Positions 4,661-61,440 of a stretch of DNA of 64,000 nt are shown one piece after another. How positions within the stretch are numbered: the stretch's first letter is position 1; every line of letters starts with the position of its first letter. Source of the stretch: Buxus sempervirens (taxonomy: Eukaryota > Streptophyta > Magnoliopsida > Buxales > Buxaceae); the NCBI GenBank assembly GCA_947561395.2, contig OX387185.1, positions 44,898,602-44,962,601 on the forward strand, read 5' to 3'. The notes below the pieces were generated by a model. That model had not been told where the DNA came from and did no database searches. It saw nothing but the letters and a program-made list of their open reading frames with translations. The position numbers and the translations under genes are program-made.

Positions 4661-4670
4661 GGATTTGTGA

Positions 4671-4677
4671 TATATAA
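4671..4677 (+). promoter_or_regulatory. Probable TATA box of the F-box gene
   Basis: TATATAA follows a GC-richer promoter stretch. About 90 bases later a good donor (AAG|GTGAGATT, exon end 4769) suggests a short non-coding first exon. Further possible leader exons are 5332..5372 (CAG acceptor, GTATGA donor) and one starting at 5446; I cannot fix the leader splicing. Confidence 0.4.
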
Positions 4678-6250
4678 TCTGCTTTAACTCGGCTTTTTGC
4701 GAATTCTAGGTTGTTTTTTTTTCCCTCTTTTTGTTGTGATATATGTAACTATTTCCATCGGTGAAAGAAGGTGAGATTCGATTCTCTTCTCAATTTCTCC
4801 TTGGATTTGTGCTTGAATCTTGATTTTAATTGTAATTTCGATTCTATTCTTGTCGTTCTGTTTGCCAATTTTGATTCGGTAGTCTTAAATGGCGTTAATT
4901 TTGTGAATCTCGTGGTTGTACTTTCCGTAAGATCTCGAATTTTGCTTTCGATTCTTGTGTGATTCGAACCGATTATCGTTTTCACTGGTTAGTCGTTGGT
5001 ATTGGAGAATTTTTAATTTTTGATTTCTTTTCTGATCTCCTCAGATTTTCGTAGAGTTGAGGTTTAGGGTTTCATGTCCTACGTTGTCTTAATTTTTCCC
5101 CATTTTGTAGTGTGTGTAAGTAAATCTAGGGTTTGATTTTCTGTTGGAGAAAATGAATTTGCTGGATTCGTTACCTTCGTGAATATATATAAATTTTTTG
5201 AACATGCAGAAATGAATTTGATACTTAAATAAAATTATTGTATATCCGATCATCTCGAAATGTTCTAACTCGATTTTCTGTCCCAATTTATTTCTTTTAA
5301 CACTGAGATTGTGGAACTTTCATGGGTGCAGATAATTGGATTTCGAGAAACTTTCTGCTCCCATTTCTCAAGGTATGACTGCAAAAACTTTTTAGATATT
5401 TGTTTGTTTCCTGAACTGTAATTATCTAATCGTATTTTTTTTCAGTTTCTGGATATTGATGGCTACTTTGATTGGATTTGGAAGTCTTAGCTGTGCAGTA
5501 GCTCGTTGGGTTTACATGTTTGTAATTGCTAATTGAGCTCTTCCTGAATATTGTTAGATAATTCTGATATTAATAGATTTTAGTTCTTCGAGTTGTACTT
5601 AGATAAGGCAAATAGCTGCTGTTAATACTTTGAGTTGTTTCTAGTTCAATGGTAATAGCTGAAATTGAGTACCTCCTTCCTCGTACTTCAAATAGACCCA
5701 GTCAAATTTCTCTACCACTTGAGTTATTGTGCTACCTTATTTTTTTTCATTTTAACTTTTTTGGGATTGAATTTGCACCTTACTTTACCCTGATCCATTG
5801 AAAATAGCGCTTCTAATCAGATTATACGGACAAACATTTCTTGACAATCTTTGGTTAGGGGGCTGATCCCTTTTTGTTGAATCTATTACCTTTATTTACA
5901 AAACATATGAAGTTGGGGAATGTTGGATTTCTAATTTATTTGTCAATCTTAATGTGTAATATGTGTTGAAGTTTTTATTTTTTGTTTTTTTAACACTTAT
6001 GATGCTCTGCTTACCTTCTTCAGTCATATATTGTACTTAATTAATTGGAGCCTTTTCGTACATGTTGCGGCATTGTTTGACATAATATTCATGAACACAG
6101 ATTTGAATGGGAGGGGTTGGTAATTATGTGGAATCTTCATCGTCTTCTTGTTCGTAGGGAACCATCATACCGTTGAGCTGCTTCGAGGCTATTCAAGCTT
6201 ATAACCACTTCTGTAATATCCCCTTTTTGTGCTTATCTGAACTGAAGATA

Positions 6251-8653: not shown

Positions 8654-9607
8654 TAGGCACCATGACGACAAATCACAAACTGTTTTATGGGACAATGTTG
8701 TGAGGGTAGGTTTTGAACCTACGCATTGGAGATCACTGCCAGTATCCCAGGTGGCACGCTTGCATGTTTTATTGGGTTTTTTCATGGACCAAAAAGTGTT
8801 TTATTTTCTAGTCTTTATGGTCCAATGCTCCACCCAAAGGGGCTCAATTTCGACCTCTATGTTTTGAAAATCAAATCATGCATAAAAAAGAAAATGAGAA
8901 AGAGTCTCATCCTGTTTGTCCAATGCTTCAACTTACCATTTAAATGGCTAAATCAGAAGAATCCGTTTATAGATTGAGGTTCAAAAACCCATTGACATGT
9001 TGGCTGGTGATTAATGATTAGACCTCCAATTCAATTCAGTTTTCTAAAACATTTTTTGTGACATCCCGATCCCATATTAGAAACGGATGAAATCCTGATA
9101 AGGTATATGAATTAGGAAGAACATTCAACCTAAAGAGTTGCCTTGGACACACCCATGCGGAAATACGTCAAAAGAATAGGGTTCTAGAATAGCAAGAAAC
9201 TCCCAATGGGAGGTGTATCAAGCGTTATATCTTTGTAAGTGGTCCTTAAAATCCTTTTACACTGTTGACAATCCAACAAACTACATCGAGCAATTCCGCT
9301 ATTGTTAGTAAAGATGTCGAGACCATGGTTTTCAGTTTCGGCGTGCCGCCGAAAAATTGCTGTGCGCCTGGCTAGCGACACGTTTCGTTAACCAGGTGCC
9401 GCCCAGTTGGAATCGGCTCGAAAAAACTGAATTTTTTTTTAAATTTTTGTTCGCGCGCGTGAAAAGCCGTAGCGTTTCGACGGCACGTCGCAGCGTGCCA
9501 TCAAAACGCAAGAGAGGAGCACGGAAGAGAGAGTTTTTTTGGGTTCGTGTTTGTAAATTTGAATAACTTTAGTCTTGTTTGAAATTATAAGAAGTTAAAA
9601 GTTAAAA
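8654..9607. other. Intergenic, possible LTR scrap and a GC-rich patch
   Basis: TGTGACATCCCGATCCCA at 9057 resembles the first bases of a plant LTR, but no second end was found. From 9310 to 9530 the sequence becomes GC-rich with CGGCGTGCCGCCG-type motifs that recall 15620-15940 on the other side of the CACTA element. No gene seen. Confidence 0.4.
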
Positions 9608-9933
9608 CACTACAAAAAAAGTCTTTTTATTACGGCACTTCAAAAGTGCCCTTATAATATAGAAAAATGCCGTTATAACATATAACGGCATTTTGATAAA
9701 GTGCCGTTTCAAGTGGTGTTGCATTATGTTATAGCGACAACTTATAACGACACTTTGGAATATGCCGCTATAAAGTGACTTTTTACGGCATTTAAAAATG
9801 CCGTAAAAATATCAGTTATTACGGCATTTTTTTAAAGTGTCGTAATAAAGTTTATCAACACTTGAAGGCTTTTAACGGCAACCACCAAATTCTGCTAAAA
9901 GTATATTAATTTTAAAAAAATTTAATTTACACA

Positions 9934-9935
9934 CC

Positions 9936-9966
<31 letters not shown>

Positions 9967-9969
9967 ACA
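9934..9969. repeat. Poly-C followed by (CA)n
   Basis: A run of about 19 C continues into eight or so CA units inside the left part of the CACTA element. The run length may be assembly-uncertain. Confidence 0.9.
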
Positions 9970-10517
9970 ATCCTAGCAAGGAATCTCCACCTCAGGCACT
10001 TTACTGAATTCAATCTATAAACCCTGCCGTATCTGGATGGAATGGCACCGTATCTGGATGGAATGGCAAGTTATTGAAACTGTTCTGATATATCCTCCAT
10101 CACTCACAAGAACAAAACTAGGATACCACACACCGGAGTGATTAGTTCATGAAGATGGAAGAAAACAAAACCTAATCACCAAGCTAGCTGCAAGGACCAG
10201 AAAACACTCTTAAACAGGCAAGAAGGCAGAAATGAAGGAATGAAAATGGAGATAGATTGAGATGACATGATAGAGAAATAGGTAGTAGACTACAAAGCAT
10301 AAAATAAAATGTAGGAGATGACAAGGAATTAGATTAGAAAAATAGAAAGAAAAAGAAAAAAAGAAGCTAAGTAATGATAAATAAAAATTTCTTTCAGACA
10401 TGCAATGTCATGAATTGAGTATAATTTATAAGAGAATATAATCTTCAGAAGGTTGTTCTGGAATCAACCCACAGGGCAAATAACTAGAGATACCTAATGA
10501 AAGGCTATTTAGCATAC

Positions 10518-11030
10518 TTGCAATTCAAAACTTCCCCAGAGCTAGAATGGCCCAGATTACTTAATATTACAACACAATCTCCATCAAGCCTCTCCCTTAT
10601 GCGAACAACATCTACTTTCTTTACTTCACCCGTTGCTCCATAATCAATGCCTTCAACAACTCCTCTTCTCTGGAAAAGAATAACATATAAAATGGTTGAT
10701 AACTGTAAATCTAATTATACACAATAACAGAATGAAAAGTCAAGGTACACAATGTTGACAAGAACAGAATGAACAGTCAAATCAAAGGATTCAGTAAACA
10801 AGAATGGGATTCAAATTTTTGCCAAAGCTGATGCATTAAATACTATACTTGGAAAAATATATATCCCTCACCTTGGCTGTAAGAAAATTACCACTTGCAA
10901 CACTGACACCTACATCATGCAAACGACTATTGTCACCATGTCGATGGATACTGCATATAGAGGGCCCAGCAGAAAGCTTTGCTTCAATCATGAAGCAAAT
11001 TCCTCCAGCTGCTTTCATTGCTGCCTCCAG
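10518..11030 (-). pseudogene. NAGS1: Captured N-acetylglutamate synthase (NAGS) exons inside the CACTA element
   Basis: Two exons with intact splice sites lie on the minus strand. The first (about 11030 to 10872) reads [20 protein letters not shown], then [19 protein letters not shown] and ends NFLTAK|GTGAGG. The second (10669..10518) follows a TTCCAG acceptor and reads RRGVVEGIDYGATGEVKKVD, then VRIRERLDGDCVVILSNLG and SSSGEVLNC, ending AA|GTATGC. They join in frame, with no stop. They match the amino-acid-kinase-like part of plant NAGS, the plastid enzyme that makes N-acetylglutamate for arginine synthesis. The next expected exon (NTYEVATACAL) and the GNAT domain are missing, and upstream exons are not NAGS, so the fragment cannot make an enzyme. 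The intron is kept, so capture was from DNA, not mRNA. Confidence 0.85.
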
Positions 11031-11762
11031 AAAAGGACGAGAAGATGGTTTAGCTGCCCCCTTGTTCCATAACTATTATCCAAACATGTGCAATGAGGGT
11101 TTTGTAGTTTCTACTTTGTAGCACACCCAAGGTTCACAAACCATAAATAGCAGAGAAAATCATAAGGGGCCACTTCAGAAGAATTCTGAACATACCACAT
11201 GTGCCATATTGACATTATCATCCACTGCAGAAGAATTCCCCTGCATTGACACCAATGTCCAATTTATATCAGAAATTGATGCATAAGAACTAAATAACAA
11301 GTTATTCAAATAACAATGACAACGGCTAGCAAGAAGAATAGCCACTACATTGAGAACAAAGATATCAACAGTGAACTTGATAGCCTCAGCTGCAGCTCGT
11401 GATCACAGATAATACAGTCCTGTTTTCAGACCCTTGCATAGAAGAATAAGGAAATTCAGCAGATATAAGGGCAAACCAATTATAGGGGAAAGGAAAGAAA
11501 CATAAACATCAAATATAATTTCAGAGAATTTTTTTTGACCAATAGAATGCATGAAATATGGTACCATATATAAATCAGCATTTGCATCAAAATGCACATA
11601 CATGCAAATATTTATACAAATATTAGGAAGTAAACAAGTTTTTAGATCTAGAGAATAGGATGAGTAATGACTGATTACCTTTCCTAAGTTCCTCCTCTTT
11701 GATCAACATTTTCATAGAGAGATAGAGAGAGAACTAAAACCATCAAAGCAAATACCTGTTAT

Positions 11763-11810
11763 TGATTGCTGCAGCCATGGCCATGAAAACCTGCAAGTCC
11801 CTGTAGAAAG
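11763..11810 (-). pseudogene. Unassigned exon-like segment in the CACTA element
   Basis: Minus strand: acceptor TTTCTACAG, coding-like DLQVFMAMAAAINNR, donor CAG|GTATTT. It joins in phase with another exon-like segment near 13723-13773 (YSRWICDEFGLLADLAR, donor CAAG|GTGCG). I do not recognise the parent gene. It may be a second captured host fragment or part of the element's own old gene. Confidence 0.35.
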
Positions 11811-11954
11811 GAAATTTTATTTGCTTAAGGTGTTCACAAGAAATAATTAAAACCACAGAGACAATCATCAAAGAAACTACCAGATATGATATTAAAAGTA
11901 GACTTCAAAAAGAAAACAAAATAAACCATCAAAGCACTTCTATGAGGGAATTAA

Positions 11955-12090
11955 GGATGTGGCAATTAATAAGATGTCCAAGACTAGGAAGACATTAAAA
12001 GTTTCTTCATTGACTTCGCCATTAGCAAAGGCAAATTCAAGGAAGTACTTAACTCCTTCCACATAGTCATCACTAAACCTAAGTCAAAAC
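11955..12090 (-). pseudogene. Possible remnant of a CACTA transposase-associated domain
   Basis: The minus strand reads FSDDYVEGVKYFLEFAFANG, then EVNEE, after an upstream stop. The Y..GV..FL.FA pattern resembles the start of the plant Transpos_assoc domain that precedes CACTA TNP2-type transposases, but the following CPC..C zinc pattern is missing. Weak evidence. Confidence 0.35.
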
Positions 12091-13291
12091 CAAAAAGGAA
12101 AGAAAAAACACAATACTTATAGCATCAATATATCAATATTATTCAATTTTTTTGAATTATAACTGAATATATATCAATAACTGATGTAAATTTCTTTATA
12201 AATCCAACTTCGATCCATATAAGAGCACCACTTCTCACTTTACATGCATAAATAAAAATAAATTAATTGCTGTAACAAAACAAGCTAAGAAAATTTTAAT
12301 CAACAAGTGTAGTTAAACTATTAAGATAAAAGTGACGTGGCTCCAATTAAGATAGCTATTTGATTAGCAACCATTCTTGTGCTAATCCAAATGGCACAAG
12401 AATAATCCTTTCTATTCAACAGTTCTTGATTAGACATTAAGAACTGTTGTTTTTAACATTTGATATTCTGAGAGGCAGATAGTCAGATCTGCTACATGCG
12501 TATGTTAGGATTCTCTTTTCATTTCTGTGAAGGCCTTTCCAAATAATTTTCAAAACAAAAACTAGGGGGTGCAAAACAATTCTCACTATTAGTGTTAAAA
12601 TAAGGCACAAACTTCTGTGAAGTGACCACCCTTTACCATGGCTCAAAACAAGGGAGCAAACCAATTACAAAACAAGTAAGCATGCAGCATACAAGATAAC
12701 TCTTACTTACTAGTGTAATAGCAAGCTGGCATTATAGCAGAACTTCCTTGCAAATTTTATGGCATTATAGCATAACTCTTGCAAGATGTTGATAGCAAAA
12801 CATAAGTTCTTCATAAATGTTCCCAAATGGTGAAGCCTTCAATATTTTCCCAATGTGAGGTTCCTCAAAGAGTTCATTTATCTAAAGTTCATTTTCTTGA
12901 GGCGCTATCAATAAAAGCAGAGAAAAAAAAAAACTAGAGGCATATATGATCAATACAGACTATGAGTTGACCTTTCCATCAGCTACTGGGTACACCACTT
13001 TGGTTGGAAGCAACTATAAGCAATAGATTCCCAAGAGTTTCCACTTTCTATAAAGCAATTAAATTCTTTGGACTACCTTGAAATGGACGAAATATTGTGG
13101 TCCAAAGTTCAGCAAAACAGATCCCAACTCATCCCTTTTAACCATATTCATTTATCTCCTAATGGAATTATATTTTAGTCATTTCCTATTTAGAGATCAC
13201 CACCAACTAATCTGACACTATCTCAACACTTTGGACACTGCAATAACCACCAAAAACCATCAGCCACCACCGACTGGCTATTACTATTACC

Positions 13292-13478
13292 CTGGCCAGA
13301 CAACAATTATCACTTTCAGCAGTAACCATTGGTCACTACCATCATATCTCTGTTAAAACTCAATGACTATCTGATATCATTTCCCTGGCCAGACAACAAT
13401 TATCACTTTCAGCAGTAACCATTGGTCACTACCATCATATCTCTGTTAAAACTCAATGACTATCTGATATCATTTCCC
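13292..13478. repeat. 93-bp tandem duplication
   Basis: The unit starting TGGCCAGACAACAATTATCA is present twice head to tail with near identity inside the CACTA element, which suggests a recent duplication. Confidence 0.85.
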
Positions 13479-13767
13479 AGATGGTCGTAAGGGGTCAAAA
13501 GAAAAAAAAAATTCTGTTAGAACTCTGATCCTATGAATTATAATTCCATGAAATACAAGTCTAATTCAATTTCCTCCTGAGAGAAATCAGAAATTTCTGA
13601 ACTAATACTTCTCAACTTGCCAAATCAGCGTAGGAAAATTTAAACTCAAAATTAAAGTAATACTTCTCAACTAAAAACTATCGCATTGAAATGAAGTAGT
13701 AATAGAAATTGACAACGCACCTTGCCAGATCAGCTAGAAGGCCGAACTCGTCACAAATCCACCGGGA

Positions 13768-13935
13768 GTAACTGCAATCACGAGGGAATCCTATCAGACA
13801 CGAAATGCACAGATCATTTGAACAGATCTGGAAACGAGTAGCAATCGAGAGTAACTGCAATCACGAGCGAATCCTATCAAACAAGAGATGCACAGATCAT
13901 TTGAACAGATCTAGAAACGAGTTGCAATCGAGATC
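13768..13935. repeat. About 82-bp tandem duplication
   Basis: A unit containing AGTAACTGCAATCACGAG and CACAGATCATTTGAACAGAT occurs twice with a few substitutions, again inside the CACTA element. Confidence 0.8.
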
Positions 13936-14832
13936 TAGATGTAAAGAGGGCGGCCCTAAACTAAACAGACACAGAGAAGATATGTTCTTCCAATGGCAAG
14001 ATGAGGGCCCTAAACTAAGGGGGAAAACCAATGGCAGGAAAATAAAAAGGGAGGATTAGTGTTTTTTTGGGGTTCTCTTTACCTTTGGAGAAGAAGAACG
14101 AAGACGACATTTTAAAGGAGGGGTATTTCGGCCTATAGATTTGGCGTTGTGGAAGTGGGAGAGGCGAAACAACGATGGTGCTCCGATCTTCACAGCTACC
14201 CACGCTTGAGACGTTTCTGTTTAGGTCGTTCGCAGCAGATTGAAAAAAAAAAACTAAAAATTTGTTTTCTTGGGGTATTTTTAAAACTAATTCATATTTA
14301 GTCATCCCAAATCTTCCTAATTAGCAATTAATTAAGTTTAGTTTAAATAATTAAGAACAAATCTTATTTCAAATAATTGCATCACTAAATCTAAATTATT
14401 CTAAAAAAAATCACTAAAACAAAGTTTCCCAAAAATATACTTTATTTTTAATAATTATTTTAAATTTTATAGCGGCATTTTATAATAAAGTGCCATAATA
14501 AAATATTTTACAAATTATTGTTTAGCAACATTTGATGGAGAAGTGCCGTAATAATTTGTTTTATAGAGGCATTTTTATAAGAAATGCTGTAATAATTTGC
14601 TTTATAATGGCATTTCTTAGAAAATGCCGTAACAAAATGTTTTATAGGGGCATTCAATTAGAAAATGCCGTAATAAATCGTTTTATAATGGCATTTTTCT
14701 AAGAAATGCAATAATAAATTGTTTTATAATGGCATTTGCATACAAAATGCCGTATTAAGGCACTTATAAGGGCACTTTTATATAAGTGCCCTTATATTAG
14801 TGTCGTTATATCACTTTTTTTTTGTAGTGAAA

Positions 14833-16739
14833 GAGTTTTGAAAATTACATTTCCACCCCTATTATCACTTCTTTGTACTTTAGAACATTTGGGATTGGAA
14901 TGAAATATTTAAAAGTTTGCATTACCTCTTCGTGTGTAATATATTATATTTTATTATTTACTTTATGACTGTGATCATATCGATTATTATAATGAAATTA
15001 GAAAATTGATTTGTGCATATGGATTACAAATACATATTAACAAAATAAATTGTTTATCTTATTTAGGAGAGATAAATAAATAAATAATAAAAACAGATAA
15101 AATATATTTTAGGTGTCAAATAATTTTAGGAATAAAATAAATTATTTATTGGAAAACATGTGGAGTTGTAATAATTATAACAAATTGTGAATTATAAAAC
15201 CAAATCTGGCGCCAAGTTTGGGGAAATTTATATTTAGTGATATTTTTTGAACATAATTAAAATTCAATTAGTCAAAGTGGATTTCAAAACCTATTCTCCC
15301 AAGAATACCCGTACAATGACTTGTTCCTTCTATACTAATTTGTATAAATCATTTTACTGACGTGTACAAATCATTTGATTAAATGATATAATGGTATTCT
15401 TGAAATTATACGAATGTAAAAGTTAAATATCATTAAAATTTAATTAATTGATAAAGGTTTCCTAACAATAAAATACCTATATTTAACAAAAATTTAATTA
15501 ATTGATAAGGGTTTCGTAACAGTAAAATACCCTCCTTTTTTAAGGAGTAACTCGGGTGGTCTTTAGTTGGAAATCCACATATGCTGATGTTTGATTTTTA
15601 GCAACAAAAAAAAAAACTTTTGATTTCTGCCAAAATTTTCGGCACACCGGCGAAATTTCATCGAAACTGGAAAAAAACTCATTTTTTAGCCAAACGGCAT
15701 TCAGAAACTGAGTTTTCCCAAAAATTTTGGCACGCCGGCGAAATTTTGTCGAAATTGAAAAAAATCCATTTTTTAACCAAATGGCATTCAAAAATTGAGT
15801 TTTCCCCAAATTTTCGACATGCCGACGAAATTTCGGGCAAATTTCAAACATGCCGTTTTTCCGCGGTTTCGGCGGTGTGTCGCCGGCGTGCTGTTTTTTT
15901 TCAATGGGCGGCACGCTTGCCGACATCGAAACTGTAATTCTTAGTCGAGTTACAAACAAAACTTAGTAGTTGAGGGTATAAATTATTTCAATCGCTGAAA
16001 TTAGCCATATTTTAAGTTACAAAATAGCAATACTACTTGTGAGTTGCTTTAACACTTTGGTTTGACCACTAAGCCAAACAAACCACCAAAATTATTGCCT
16101 TGATATCAACTCCTTGATAAGGGATGACAATGTGATACTTATAAAGACAGGTGGAATATTCATTGAATTACCAGAATTTCTTTATTAATAGAATTCCTCT
16201 TATTACGGATAAAAAAATGTGTAATTTTACCTTTTACTTTTATATAGCGCGAGCCCTACAAATTCTGGCCGGATAATCGGTTTCCATCTTAAAAATTTTC
16301 AAAAACACCATGTTTAAATTCAACATGCTTAGTTTCAAAATTATTTTTTTGAAATACAATGAAACTATTTTGTAGGAAGTTAACATTTAAGATTCAATTT
16401 AATGTGCTTTATTTTAGCATGGTACATTATCTCAAACTAGATACTCTGGAACAATTTCATATTAAATTAGAGGAGTTGGCTAATTAACATTCTTCATTTT
16501 CTCAAAAAATAAATAAATAAAATAAGCATCTTTGGTTTCCATAGCACACATGTTACATTATCTTAAATCAGATTTTCTGAAAATAAATGCATATTAAAAT
16601 TTTTTTTTAAACATAATAAATTAACTTCCTGGAAGAGCTAATTGGGTAATTAACATTAATCTTTGTGTTACTAACTTCAACTTCAACTAGCATCACGAAA
16701 AGCAAATTTCTGCTTGTGTCATGAAAAGCAAGCTACAAA
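14833..16739. other. Intergenic, no gene seen; one tandem repeat
   Basis: AT-rich except for the GC-rich repeat at 15620-15940. Near 15221-15260 a GGGGAAATTTATATTTAGTGA segment recalls one end of the Mutator-like MITE family, but no matching far end was found. Confidence 0.5.
15632..15900. repeat. About 88-bp tandem repeat, 2-3 copies
   Basis: Units begin at GGCACACCGGCGAAATTT (15641), GGCACGCCGGCGAAATTT (15729) and GACATGCCGACGAAATTT (15816), giving a period of 87-88 bp. Each includes AACTCATTTTTTAGCCAAA-like and GAGTTTTCCC pieces. Much more GC-rich than the surroundings. Confidence 0.8.
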
Positions 16740-34159: not shown

Positions 34160-35040
34160 TCAACTGAAATTCTTCCCCTCAAAGGTCTGGCCTATTTGCC
34201 AAGTTGGTGGCAAAACATCATCAGACTGCACCATCCTTCCATCACTACCAGTCACTTGGAATGACAAGCTCTGGTTGTGCAACTCTGCAGAAATCGACTT
34301 CACTACCAGTGTTCAACCCCTTAACCTTGACGTCGATGACCTCACCAGCTCCACCAACATTGAAAACCAGCACCAGTAATTAACCACCATTGATTTCCCT
34401 TGAGCTCAAACTTGATCCCTCCTTGCTTATAGCACATCGCTCGCAGGTACTGAACCGGAACTATCCTGGCTTTGTAGTTCGCGATCTTTAGGAACATGGG
34501 CATGCTCAAGTCGAAGTGATCTCGAGGGGGATTGCACCAAATCTCAGTAGACTTCGTATAATTGGGAGGGCAGAAATTGGTTGCAGTAACTCTAATACTG
34601 CCAGCACCTTGTATGCACCATTGTTTAGAGTTCACACACATAATTTCAAAGCAGGCGCCGCATGTCTGGCCATAGTTGAAGAGTGCCGTGCTCAGTGCTG
34701 TCGTCTCAAGTCCATCCTTGTTCGAAGAGATCTCCATAGCCACAAGCTCCCTCTGCAGTGTGGACAGCCATGAGTGCATGAAAAAAAAGCTTGAAAAGAA
34801 AAATGAGGAGATAATTCTCACAAATGATCTTATATTTTATGACTAACACCATCTATCTCATGATATTTTAGGATTTAGATTGATAAAGTGAAGGAGCTTA
34901 CGCATGGTTCCGTTGCCTTTCATATCGCCATAAAATTTTGCAGATGCTAAGCTCCATTCATTTCCAATGTACCCATTAACCGCTGCCCATGAAAGAGACA
35001 AGGCCATGAGGAACCCAACCAAATAGGAAGAGCTACCCAT
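34160..35040 (-). pseudogene. Alpha-expansin pseudogene
   Basis: Exon 1 is 34902..35040 (signal peptide, then KFYGDMKGNGTM, donor C|GTAAGC). Exon 2 homology runs 34752 to 34160. After [12 protein letters not shown] the frame is lost: compared with the intact copy at 41174, two bases are missing (CAAGGATGGACTTGAG against CAAGGATACGGCCTCGAG). The next frame gives [43 protein letters not shown] and [11 protein letters not shown], then shifts again near [19 protein letters not shown] and has lost most of the GSRTGW...NWGQNWQ stretch; the tail NQSLSFQVT and WQIGQTFEGKN ends at a TGA. Expansins loosen cell walls without cutting them; this copy cannot make a whole one. Confidence 0.85.
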
Positions 35041-39457: not shown

Positions 39458-41790
39458 ATGGGTTGGTCTGTGTATGTACTAGGGTTTATAGCCATGGCTG
39501 TGTTAACTCCTCTCATCGTTCAAGCCCACGAATATAAATGGATTAAAGCTCATGCAACATTCTATGGCGACATCTCCGGCAAAGAGACCATGCGTAAGTT
39601 TTCACATCCAGTATTACATTCATGAATTTTTTTTAATTTCTGTAGAACTTAGATCAAACTGATCAGACTACTGATGATCATATATAGTTTTAGTTTAAGC
39701 TTATGACATCTGAGATGAAGCCTAATACCAACTTGATGAGATCTAGTTTTTAGGTTAAGCTTAAGACGTCTGAACCCGAAAATCAAGTGTTACAGCCTAT
39801 TTCATGTTATTAGGGTTTATGCTCTATGATCACCATTGAAATGGATATTTCTACTATATGATAGGTTTAGTGAAAGGGAAGGATAGAGCAGTATATTGTC
39901 CAGAGAAGTCACCACAGATCTAGATGGTTGCATGTAAACTGAACTTTTTGTAGTTTTCTTAATTGAAAGTTCGTAATGGTTGATGCTGGAACCTTTCATT
40001 TGAGAACCAAGTGATGAATATGCAGTTAGAAAAGTACTTTTTTTCTTGTATAATATTTAATGGCCTTTTAACCTTCTCAAATGTATTTTATTATTTATGT
40101 AAAAAATAGCTTTAATTTCTATAAGTAGTTGTCTTTTTCTTTAATTTATCATTGTCTTTTCACATATTTTTCCATTGTTTTTAGTTAAAAAAATTTATTT
40201 ATTTATTTAGGACTCTTTCACAACTGAAATGTTCATAGAAAATTTATATATTGACAACAAATTTAGTGATCTTATTACATATACTTAAGCTCTATTAGAG
40301 AAATTTTACTAGTTAACAAAATCTAAAATAATCAATGGAATAGAACCCTAGGGCTTACACAGTGGCGGAACCACTTAGAGCTAAAGGGGTCAATTTGCGC
40401 CCCCCGCCCTAAAATTTTATTTTTTAATTTAAAATATATTTTTTCCTATATGTTTTAATTGAAATTTATGTTTTGCCCCCTCTAAAATTTCTGGTTTGCC
40501 CCCCTAATTCATTAAAATTTCTATATTTCATGAGAAGTGTTAATTGAAAATTTTTTTTGCCCCTTCAGATTTGGAGTCCTGGTTCCGCCACGGGGCTTAC
40601 ATGTATTCTGCTACTGAATTTTCTTCTTGAATGTATTTCCCCAAGGCAATATAACCTTAATGTAAGAAAATATTAATAATTTTCAAATGAAAGAGAAAAT
40701 ATCTAAAAAAATATTTAAACTTTGATAATATCTATAATAAAACTTTAGTAGAAGTTTATTTCTGAATTTTATTTATATTAAGGTGTTATCAAAGGCCAAA
40801 AAGCAAAGACATCCATCTATAATAAACAGATTCATCTAAGATTTATAGATGGATTCATCAAAATAATTCTAATTTAAATGCTTTATAATATTTTAAAACT
40901 TTTTTGATATTGAAAGTGACAATAGCAATATAAAGTGAATATTAAAATGCAAAAATTTATTCCTATAGCTGACTACACAACTAATCAATATAATTGATTT
41001 TGTTATTATCATTAATTACAAATCCCACACCTTAAAAATTCTATGTTAGAATTCTTAAATATACCAAAAAATAGATTTCTTGTTCCATTTTATTTTCCAA
41101 ATATATTTACATTCACACCATTCATGAGTATACTGACAGCTTATATAATTTGTGGATAAATTTATGCTTGCAGAGGGAGCTTGTGGCTATCAAGATCTGC
41201 ACAAACAAGGATACGGCCTCGAGACGACGGCGCTAAGCACAGCCTTATTCAACAATGGCCTCATGTGTGGTGCTTGTTTTGAACTCAGATGCTACAATGA
41301 TACTCAATGGTGCTTGCCAGGCACCATCCGTGTAACTGCTACAAACTTCTGTCCCCCTAATTACGCTTTGTCTAACATCAATGGAGGATGGTGCAATCCA
41401 CCCAACAAGCATTTCGATCTTTCCCTGCCCATGTTTCTTGAGATCGCAAAGTATAAAGCCGGGATCGTTCCGGTCATTTTCCGGCGTGTCCCCTGTGTGA
41501 AGCAAGGTGGGATCAAGTTCGAGATCAATGGAAACTACTACTGGATGCTGGTACTTGTGTACAATGTTGCAGATAATGGAGATGTTGTGGATGTGAAGAT
41601 CAAGGGTTCAAGAACTGGGTGGATACAAATGACGCGTAATTGGGGCCAGAATTGGCAAACATGGGTGCAGTTGCAAGGGCAAAGCTTGTCATTCCGGGTG
41701 ACTACTCAGGGTGGTAGAACAGTTCAGTCCGATAACGTTGCACCCGCTAACTGGCAGTTTGGACGGACTTATGAGGGTAAACAGGTCTAG
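39458..41790 (+). CDS. EXPA: Alpha-expansin
   Basis: Two exons, 39458..39593 and 41174..41790, joined in phase 1; 250 residues. Signal peptide about 1-26 ([15 protein letters not shown]). Domain 1 (GH45-like) has [62 protein letters not shown] and KYKAGIVPV with the expected cysteines and the HFD motif. Domain 2 (carbohydrate-binding) has [30 protein letters not shown] and the terminal [11 protein letters not shown]. Expansins act in the cell wall at acid pH, loosening cellulose-xyloglucan contacts. [11 protein letters not shown] is slightly unlike the usual GYGDL(Y)SQGYG. The 1.58-kb intron holds a hAT MITE. It lies about 4.4 kb from, and head to head with, the broken copy at 34160-35040. 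Confidence 0.92.
40359..40592. mobile_element. hAT-type MITE, copy 3, in the expansin intron
   Basis: Ends ACAGTGGCGGAACCA and TGGTTCCGCCACG, with an exact 8-bp duplication GGGCTTAC at 40351-40358 and 40593-40600. The interior shares GAAATTT/TTTCATGAGAA and TTGCCCC blocks with copy 1. Exact duplications suggest fairly recent insertion. Confidence 0.85.
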
Positions 41791-60234: not shown

Positions 60235-61440
60235 GAGTAATTCCCAAGTATACCCATGGTACCCCAAAGTTTACCCCAGGTACCCTCTCGGATAACACTA
60301 GTGTATACCCCAAAATACTCCCAAGAATACTTAAAGTAATTCCTAAGAGCACCCAAGGTACCTCCTAAGTGTACCCAAATTATCCCCTAAAAATACTTAA
60401 AGTAACTCTTAAGAATACCCAAGGTACCTCTCAAGTGTACCTTAAGTATCTTCCAAGAATACCCAAATAACCTCTCAAGTATACCCCAGGTACCCCACTT
60501 CTATACCCAAGGTACACCCAAGTGTTACCCAAGGTACCCTCATTATATACCCAAGGTATGCCCGAGTATTACCCAAGGTACCACCAAAGTATTACTTAAA
60601 GTACCCCCAAATTATACCTAAGGTACCCCTGTGTACACCTAAGGTATTTCATCATTTCACCTAAGGTACCCTACTTTAATTACCTAAGGTAGCCTTGTTT
60701 GCCTAATGTACCCCTGTGTTTCTCTAAGGTATCCTCTTGTGTTTGTCTAAGGTACCCCACATGTATACCTAAAATACCCCCTTATATTACCTAAGGCACC
60801 TCACTCATATTGGCTAAGGTACCCCACTGTTTTGCCCAAGGTACCCCATTCGAATACCTAAAGTACTCCTAATTATACCTAAGGTACCTCACTTGTATTA
60901 CCTAAGGTATCCCTTTATTTTAACTAAGGTACCCTACTGTTTTACTTAAAGTACTCCTTGTTTACTTAAGGTACATTCCCTTATACATCTAAGGTACCTC
61001 TTTTATATAACTAAAGTACCTCCAATATACCTAAGGTACACCCTTGTATTTCCTAGAGATACTCCTCTCATATAAGTAAGGTACCCCTACTGTTTTAACT
61101 AGGGTACACCCCCTATATAGCCAAAGTATCCCTTTTGTCTAACTAAAGTAACCCCTATATAAGTAAGGTAACCCCTCACTATTTTGCCTAAGGTATAACC
61201 CCTTCTATAGCTAAGGTACCCCCCCTCATATAACTAAGGTACACCTCTTCTATAGTTAAGTACCCTCCTCAATATAACTGAGGTACACCTCCCAAGCATT
61301 CCTAAAGCATGCCTTTGAAGTGGCTAAGGCAAACACCCCACTTAACACTAAAGTACCCCCACTTAATACCAAGGTACCCCACTCAAATAACACTAAGGTA
61401 CCCCTGGTATGCTTTAGGTACACCCTAAGGTTTAGTTGAA
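60235..61440. repeat. Degenerate minisatellite built on (CT)AAGGTACCC
   Basis: Dozens of copies of AAGGTACC or close variants (AAAGTACC, AAGGTATC, AAGGTACA) recur every ~18-28 bases across 1.2 kb, separated by variable CT/AT-rich spacers. Spacing is irregular and units are diverged, so this is an old array. It gives many GGTACC (KpnI) sites. Confidence 0.85.

Follow-up and report, generated by a model that had tools for sequence, protein, structure and literature searches.

Fragments of host genes have been reported within transposons of the CACTA and Pack-TYPE kinds (PMC8903248, in the part of the article available). In soybean, the excerpted description of Tgm-Express1 presents a CACTA element of 5.7 kb that holds five host-gene fragments, their introns kept (PMC1947982). 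Here we describe a comparable element in boxwood, Buxus sempervirens. The window analysed is a stretch of 64,000 nucleotides (C6:44898602-44962601); coordinates such as 9608-14829 are positions within it, and the genome searched comprises 676.5 Mb in 247 contigs. This element of the CACTA (En/Spm) superfamily carries exons and an intron of the gene for N-acetylglutamate synthase (NAGS), a fragment of RNR1, which codes for the large subunit of ribonucleotide reductase, and a third captured segment. It is a gene capture of the Pack-CACTA/Tgm-Express1 type, and as such a clear new case of a known kind of event.

With Tgm-Express1, as far as the accessible part of its description goes (PMC1947982), the boxwood element shares CACTA ends, a comparable size and several unrelated host fragments that retain exons and introns; it differs in being present at eight loci, in carrying NAGS, RNR1 and one further piece, and in being known here from DNA alone. 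The window copy has features of Pack-CACTA elements: host DNA sourced elsewhere (the NAGS gene of C4), no transposase region seen, and cargo at eight loci. By contrast with the Pack-CACTA and Pack-TYPE elements, as the available part of the report depicts them (PMC8903248), a sibling with the same cargo retains decayed transposase sequence. CACTA elements of Chenopodium also bear host fragments outside the transposase coding region of otherwise regular elements; in the extract at hand these lie upstream of open reading frame (ORF) 1 (PMC8978399), whereas the C8 sibling has them downstream, on its transposase strand. Finally, like the dSpm and I-type deletion derivatives of En/Spm, in the section of the source considered (PMC2613891), the window copy has kept its ends while the internal transposase region is absent, and unlike them it bears host-gene cargo. 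Among the matches listed from open-licence PMC literature, neither 'N-acetylglutamate synthase' nor 'ribonucleotide reductase' was found, which is no claim that no such paper exists. The parts of the element are as follows.

9608..14829, no strand assigned: full non-autonomous CACTA element, 5222 bp, with its own ends and AAA/AAA; five sibling loci share both ends, each between matching 3-bp flanks of its own
9608..9907, plus strand: left terminus and subterminal repeats, found in at least 40 genomic places at 95-97% identity (best 40 of 280 candidates scored)
10272..11179, minus strand: captured NAGS block (intron parts, exon 4, intron 3, shortened exon 3), 97% to C4:9929294-9930534, with 334 donor bases absent at about 11030/11031
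10518..10669, minus strand: NAGS exon B, which is donor exon 4, then GTATGC (donor exon alignment)
10670..10871, minus strand: NAGS intron GTGAGG...TTTTCCAG, 202 bp, GT...AG (donor alignment)
10872..11027, minus strand: NAGS exon A, the final 156 bp of donor exon 3 without its first 54 bp and acceptor (donor alignment)
11187..11705, minus strand: captured 3′ fragment of RNR1, 89% to C4:15878125-15878670, with an exon broken by a TGA at 11403-11405
11706..12572, no strand assigned: CACTA-family interior also found elsewhere in the genome, with a junction at about 12000/12005, where the C8 sibling holds 5.1 kb more, including transposase
12782..13601, minus strand: third captured segment, 94-97% to C6:49613476-49614822, its inner join having 5-8 bp in common
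14132..14829, minus strand: right terminus, with subterminal repeats of 41-bp period (repeat and genome comparison)

The left end, at 9608, reads AAA followed by CACTACAAAAAAAGTC, and the right end, at 14829, reads TTTTTTTTTGTAGTG followed by AAA. A 13-bp match, CACTACAAAAAAA, is present at both ends as a CACTA-type terminal inverted repeat, the left one preceded by AAA. The window holds 12 CACTAC and 6 GTAGTG; at the two element ends alone do they lead into at least seven A in a row (7 and 9), and elsewhere such a run reaches 4 at most. Subterminal motifs of the CGGCATTT/CGGCACTT type were counted on both strands with one mismatch and with overlapping patterns that count some sites twice. The end regions, which together make up 652 bp, contain 37 of them, the 4.6-kb middle contains 4, and the remaining 58.8 kb contain 49; the repeats stand in both orientations close to both ends. 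Duplications of 3 bp define CACTA elements. All six loci with both ends present have identical 3-bp flanks, namely AAA (window), TAA, GCC, TTG, AGA and AGG, and the two termini therefore belong to one element. An earlier note, made from this DNA alone, had proposed a CACTA element at 9608-14829; its matching ends, AAA/AAA duplication and subterminal motif arrays were all found again, and the possibility it raised, that the two ends come from different elements, is answered in the negative by the sibling loci, which share both ends and have flanks of their own. By eye, stretches of the CGGCGTGCC type that resemble each other flank the element at 9300-9500 and 15632-15834, the latter an 87-bp tandem repeat; the element may thus have inserted inside another repeat.

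The NAGS cargo is recognizable as protein. Exons A and B, on the minus strand, join in frame without a stop, and their 103-amino-acid product scores 74.6 bits (6.9e-21) against the NCBIfam amino-acid N-acetyltransferase model, whose curated cut-off of 344 refers to the entire protein, and matches the acetylglutamate synthase structure 2r8v, which we take to be the Neisseria enzyme, at 3.9e-8. NCBIfam and PDB were used because a Pfam search of the fragment gave nothing at E 0.01. The donor is a gene of about ten exons on the minus strand of C4 (C4:9915348-9933657), which came out as separate exons when the genome was searched with the full protein of an intronless copy (31 of 31 candidates scored). 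Three of its protein matches were each flagged with a single stop; exon alignments have none within exons, and the flagged stops most likely lie in flanking intron bases. Element positions 665-1572 (window 10272-11179) match C4:9929294-9930534 at 97.4% and 97.3%, across introns and exons alike, and since donor introns stand in the element at 97%, genomic DNA was copied, not mRNA. Differences from the donor are similar in degree in exons (3/156 and 3/152) and in the introns either side of exon B (9/202 and 4/245). In the region of the window, the same full-protein search returned no NAGS exon other than A and B. With the fragment as query, 18 matches fell at ten loci, that is, eight element loci, the donor gene and the one intronless copy (19 of 19 candidates scored).

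That exons and an intron of NAGS lie inside a CACTA element, as the earlier note had it, is thus borne out by the NCBIfam, 2r8v and donor matches; the parent gene it had called for is the one on C4, its suggested comparison of exons with intron gives like divergence, and the exons do not continue into a full gene beyond 9608-14829. Its description of working-looking splice sites holds in part. The intron has its GT...AG and the join is in frame, but this is the only intron complete within the block, and exon A is without the first 54 bp (18 codons) of donor exon 3 and its acceptor because of the 334-bp donor gap. This lost acceptor and the RNR1 fragment were missing from that account and are added here. 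The intronless copy (C9:21959473-21962423) deserves a mention of its own: it is full-length, has a 632-amino-acid stop-to-stop frame, and its DNA is 96-99% identical to exons 2-10 of the C4 gene. Homology begins about 940 bp upstream of the ATG, and its 3′ limit falls precisely at eight consecutive A that resemble a poly-A remnant. This looks like an intact retrogene of an arginine-pathway enzyme.

RNR1 supplies the next piece. The peptide KGLKTGLYYL(stop)SRAAAEAIKFTVDIFVLN matches solved large-chain-1 sequences (1zyz, presumably the yeast enzyme) at residues 734-758, E 1.1e-4, and a short exon at 11196-11240 is one that we assume to be of RNR1 as well. Across the entire piece the closest copy outside the family is C4:15878125, at 89%, and that locus also carries an RNR1 N-terminal exon (5.8e-7). 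Since it has the TGA in common with all eight element copies, the piece was probably disabled before capture. The RNR1 pseudogene itself (C4:15876625-15880174) has exons of the N- and C-terminal parts lying close together. Parts of the piece recur at C4:20.26 Mb (93-95%), next to which lies a weak match to Transposase_24 (E 2.6e-4, 21.6 bits against a cut-off of 28.7); this hints, but does not prove, that the capture of RNR1 preceded that of NAGS. At C12:28.93 Mb and C8:45.39 Mb, short RNR1 matches of 82-89% may represent working genes. In the third captured segment, positions 13286-13478 of the window copy form a tandem duplication of 93 bp, whereas the five copies aligned across this part have the unit once. 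Pfam searches of two ORFs of the element and four of the third donor segment gave no gene identity.

A search for other copies, also suggested in the earlier note, placed the cargo at eight loci, several copies having moved with it: C6 (the window), C4:3.97 Mb, C15:36.66 Mb, C14:28.60 Mb, C8:30.76-30.77 Mb, C10:25.42-25.46 Mb, C12:36.41 Mb and C21:17.75 Mb (in the whole-element DNA search, the best 40 of 392 candidates were scored). The C12 right end has one base changed (GTAATG), the C15 copy was found without its right end, and the C14 copy without its left end, with 200 N in its stretch. In the C10 copy (C10:25423360-25463742) the AGG/AGG ends stand about 40 kb apart, probably around a large nested insertion. 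Pairwise distances over seven copies (C10 left out) are 0.020-0.036, and derived sites define two subgroups, (C6, C4, C15, C14) and (C8, C10, C12, C21). At 16 sites, all family copies with data, four or more in each case, share a difference from the donor, and the 334-bp gap is the same in every copy read across; these two facts argue for one capture event. At one of the 16 sites the intronless C9 copy agrees with the element rather than the donor, so that it is probably the donor itself that changed there.

Transposase sequence survives in a fuller relative. The C8 sibling (C8:30761964-30772513; 10,550 bp, AGA/AGA) has 5.1 kb between positions 2393 and 2398 of the element, which adjoin each other in the window copy, where this segment is absent. 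Within it, on the NAGS strand and with frames broken, lie PF02992 tnp2 (9.6e-80), DUF4218 (6.8e-28) and DUF4216 (9.1e-20). Because this sibling, with the same cargo, retains a decayed transposase, capture probably came before transposase loss in the window lineage. A genome search with PF02992 gave no match at the window element among those listed (best 150 of 520 candidates scored). At C4:26.92 Mb, C4:26.95 Mb and C8:23.33 Mb the left end is found at 97%, and about 7 kb away a tnp2 domain stands in an open frame of 773-776 amino acids; each pair would form one element. The NAGS query had no match at these three places (19 of 19 candidates scored). In the left part of the C8 sibling, element positions 306-722 match DUF4283 (9.6e-13), perhaps a piece of a LINE-type element.

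The history that we favour, with a probability of roughly 0.93, is that a transposase-bearing CACTA element captured NAGS DNA of C4 beside an RNR1 piece, that the chimera spread, that some copies lost the transposase region and that the cargo is passive, neutral and probably methylated. An element still equipped with transposase would have copied the genomic DNA, introns included, next to the RNR1 pseudogene fragment, which probably had entered earlier. This would most likely have happened during faulty repair of an excision break, the repair copying other loci. The joins are of several sorts: no bases are clearly shared where the 334 donor bases are missing, NAGS and RNR1 are separated by a filler of 7 bp, and the inner join of the third piece overlaps by 5-8 bp. 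They would fit template switching of the repair type, without proving it. Distinct matching 3-bp flanks attest the spread of the chimeric element to at least eight sites, presumably by a CACTA transposase. The window copy and some other descendants have no transposase region and would rely on the enzyme of fuller relatives, in an order that would run from capture to transposase loss to further spread, with the captured exons left as passive cargo in neutral decay, probably under DNA methylation. Several points count against this history. As the DNA searches scored the best candidates (40 of 392), family copies may be missed; we infer the mechanism of capture from junctions alone, and likewise that the transposase region was lost, not gained, in the window lineage; and joined frames open in four of seven copies fit a young age, yet are compatible with use.

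Other origins explain the same DNA less well. In the model proposed for Pack-CACTA and Pack-TYPE elements, as given in the available parts of two papers (PMC8903248, PMC13317346), two CACTA insertions flanking a donor stretch fuse, and nothing need be copied in gap repair; traces of CACTA sequence would then be expected next to the donor. A stretch of 81 bp, 74% identical to the right-end region of the element (element positions 4670-4750, E 5.6e-8), does lie at C4:9934943-9935022, about 4.4 kb from the captured stretch; still, the 5 kb around that stretch (C4:9928300-9933300) have no match to the element ends, and three donors are joined within one element. As old insertions may since have been lost, the negative at the donor weighs little, and we hold such a fusion to be a possible, if rather doubtful, origin. 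Capture of NAGS mRNA, or of the intronless copy that exists on C9, is rejected for the introns that the element contains at 97%, and has hardly any chance of being right. The same near-zero standing goes to a local NAGS duplicate or pseudogene lying by chance between CACTA-like sequences. It can appeal to the presence of NAGS exons in the window and to nothing more, while no other NAGS exon lies nearby and the same piece, with the same 334-bp gap, recurs elsewhere within the same termini; common termini with distinct duplications are decisive, and this candidate is rejected too.

What the cargo does now is a separate matter. The captured exons might be expressed and useful, through a chimeric, spliced RNR1-NAGS transcript or through small RNAs tuning the parent NAGS gene. 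The splice sites between the two NAGS exons are retained in all seven two-exon copies, and the joined frame is open in four (C6, C15, C10, C12). There are analogies as well, to judge from the portions of the sources seen: captured exons of soybean Tgm-Express1 are spliced into transcripts (PMC1947982), and captured fragments in maize Helitrons, Pack-MULEs and Sireviruses, which are not CACTA elements, are reservoirs of small interfering RNA according to a review (PMC13317346). Against such use, the joined frame is broken in the other three copies (C4, C8, C21), exon A has no acceptor, the RNR1 exon has the same stop in eight of eight copies, and synonymous change is not in excess. Purifying selection on the captured exons is rejected: 26 of 34 distinct exon changes are nonsynonymous, against 72% expected without selection when transitions are weighted 4:1 (p = 0.79 for purifying selection). 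As far as 34 changes can tell, the exons decay neutrally.

The kind of mutation speaks for silencing. C-to-T or G-to-A changes affect 21 of the 65 sites in CG/CHG contexts and 15 of the 243 in CHH (odds ratio 7.3, p = 1.7e-7). The test was polarised by the donor and excluded columns 52-92, in which the second subgroup has unlike sequence, together with differences that are fixed throughout the copies. Decay by C-to-T change biased to CG/CHG marks methylated transposon DNA, and the mutation contexts suggest that the cargo is probably under DNA methylation. The earlier note had raised the chance that the cargo is transcribed or feeds small RNAs against the parent gene; the neutral decay of the exons, along with mutations of the methylation type, points to silent DNA. 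Nor has the NAGS block an inverted copy in the element: a hairpin source is rejected, the only minus-strand match being of 22 bp (E 0.58), and the one inverted pair that touches exon A (23 bp, 78%) is of a strength like that of chance pairs. We therefore consider expressed, useful exons improbable. The C8-type sibling has its RNR1 and NAGS exons on the transposase strand, downstream of the transposase region, and it is therefore conceivable that they are spliced onto transposase transcripts there, the sequence of essential genes shielding a transposase-bearing CACTA element from small-RNA silencing by the host; this we regard as very improbable.

Elsewhere in the window, two expansin-like reading frames lie at 34342-34836 and 41149-41790, with DPBB_1 in both and Expansin_C in the second only. 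An F-box protein and tnp2 transposases are also among the gene content found, which, with the expansin C-terminal domain, points to a land plant. At 60246-61404 there is a long degenerate repeat array, with periods of about 22/44 bp, around CTAAGGTACCCC.

Donor gene, boundaries, a transposase-bearing carrier and transposase-less derivatives are all present in one genome, which makes this a well-resolved gene capture, and the sequence lets one propose a likely order of events: the RNR1 piece, then NAGS, then transposase loss and spread. What the present analysis adds is this history of a capture within a single genome. The phenomenon itself is already known; the present case would allow one to test whether a transposon and an essential biosynthetic gene come into conflict through small RNAs.

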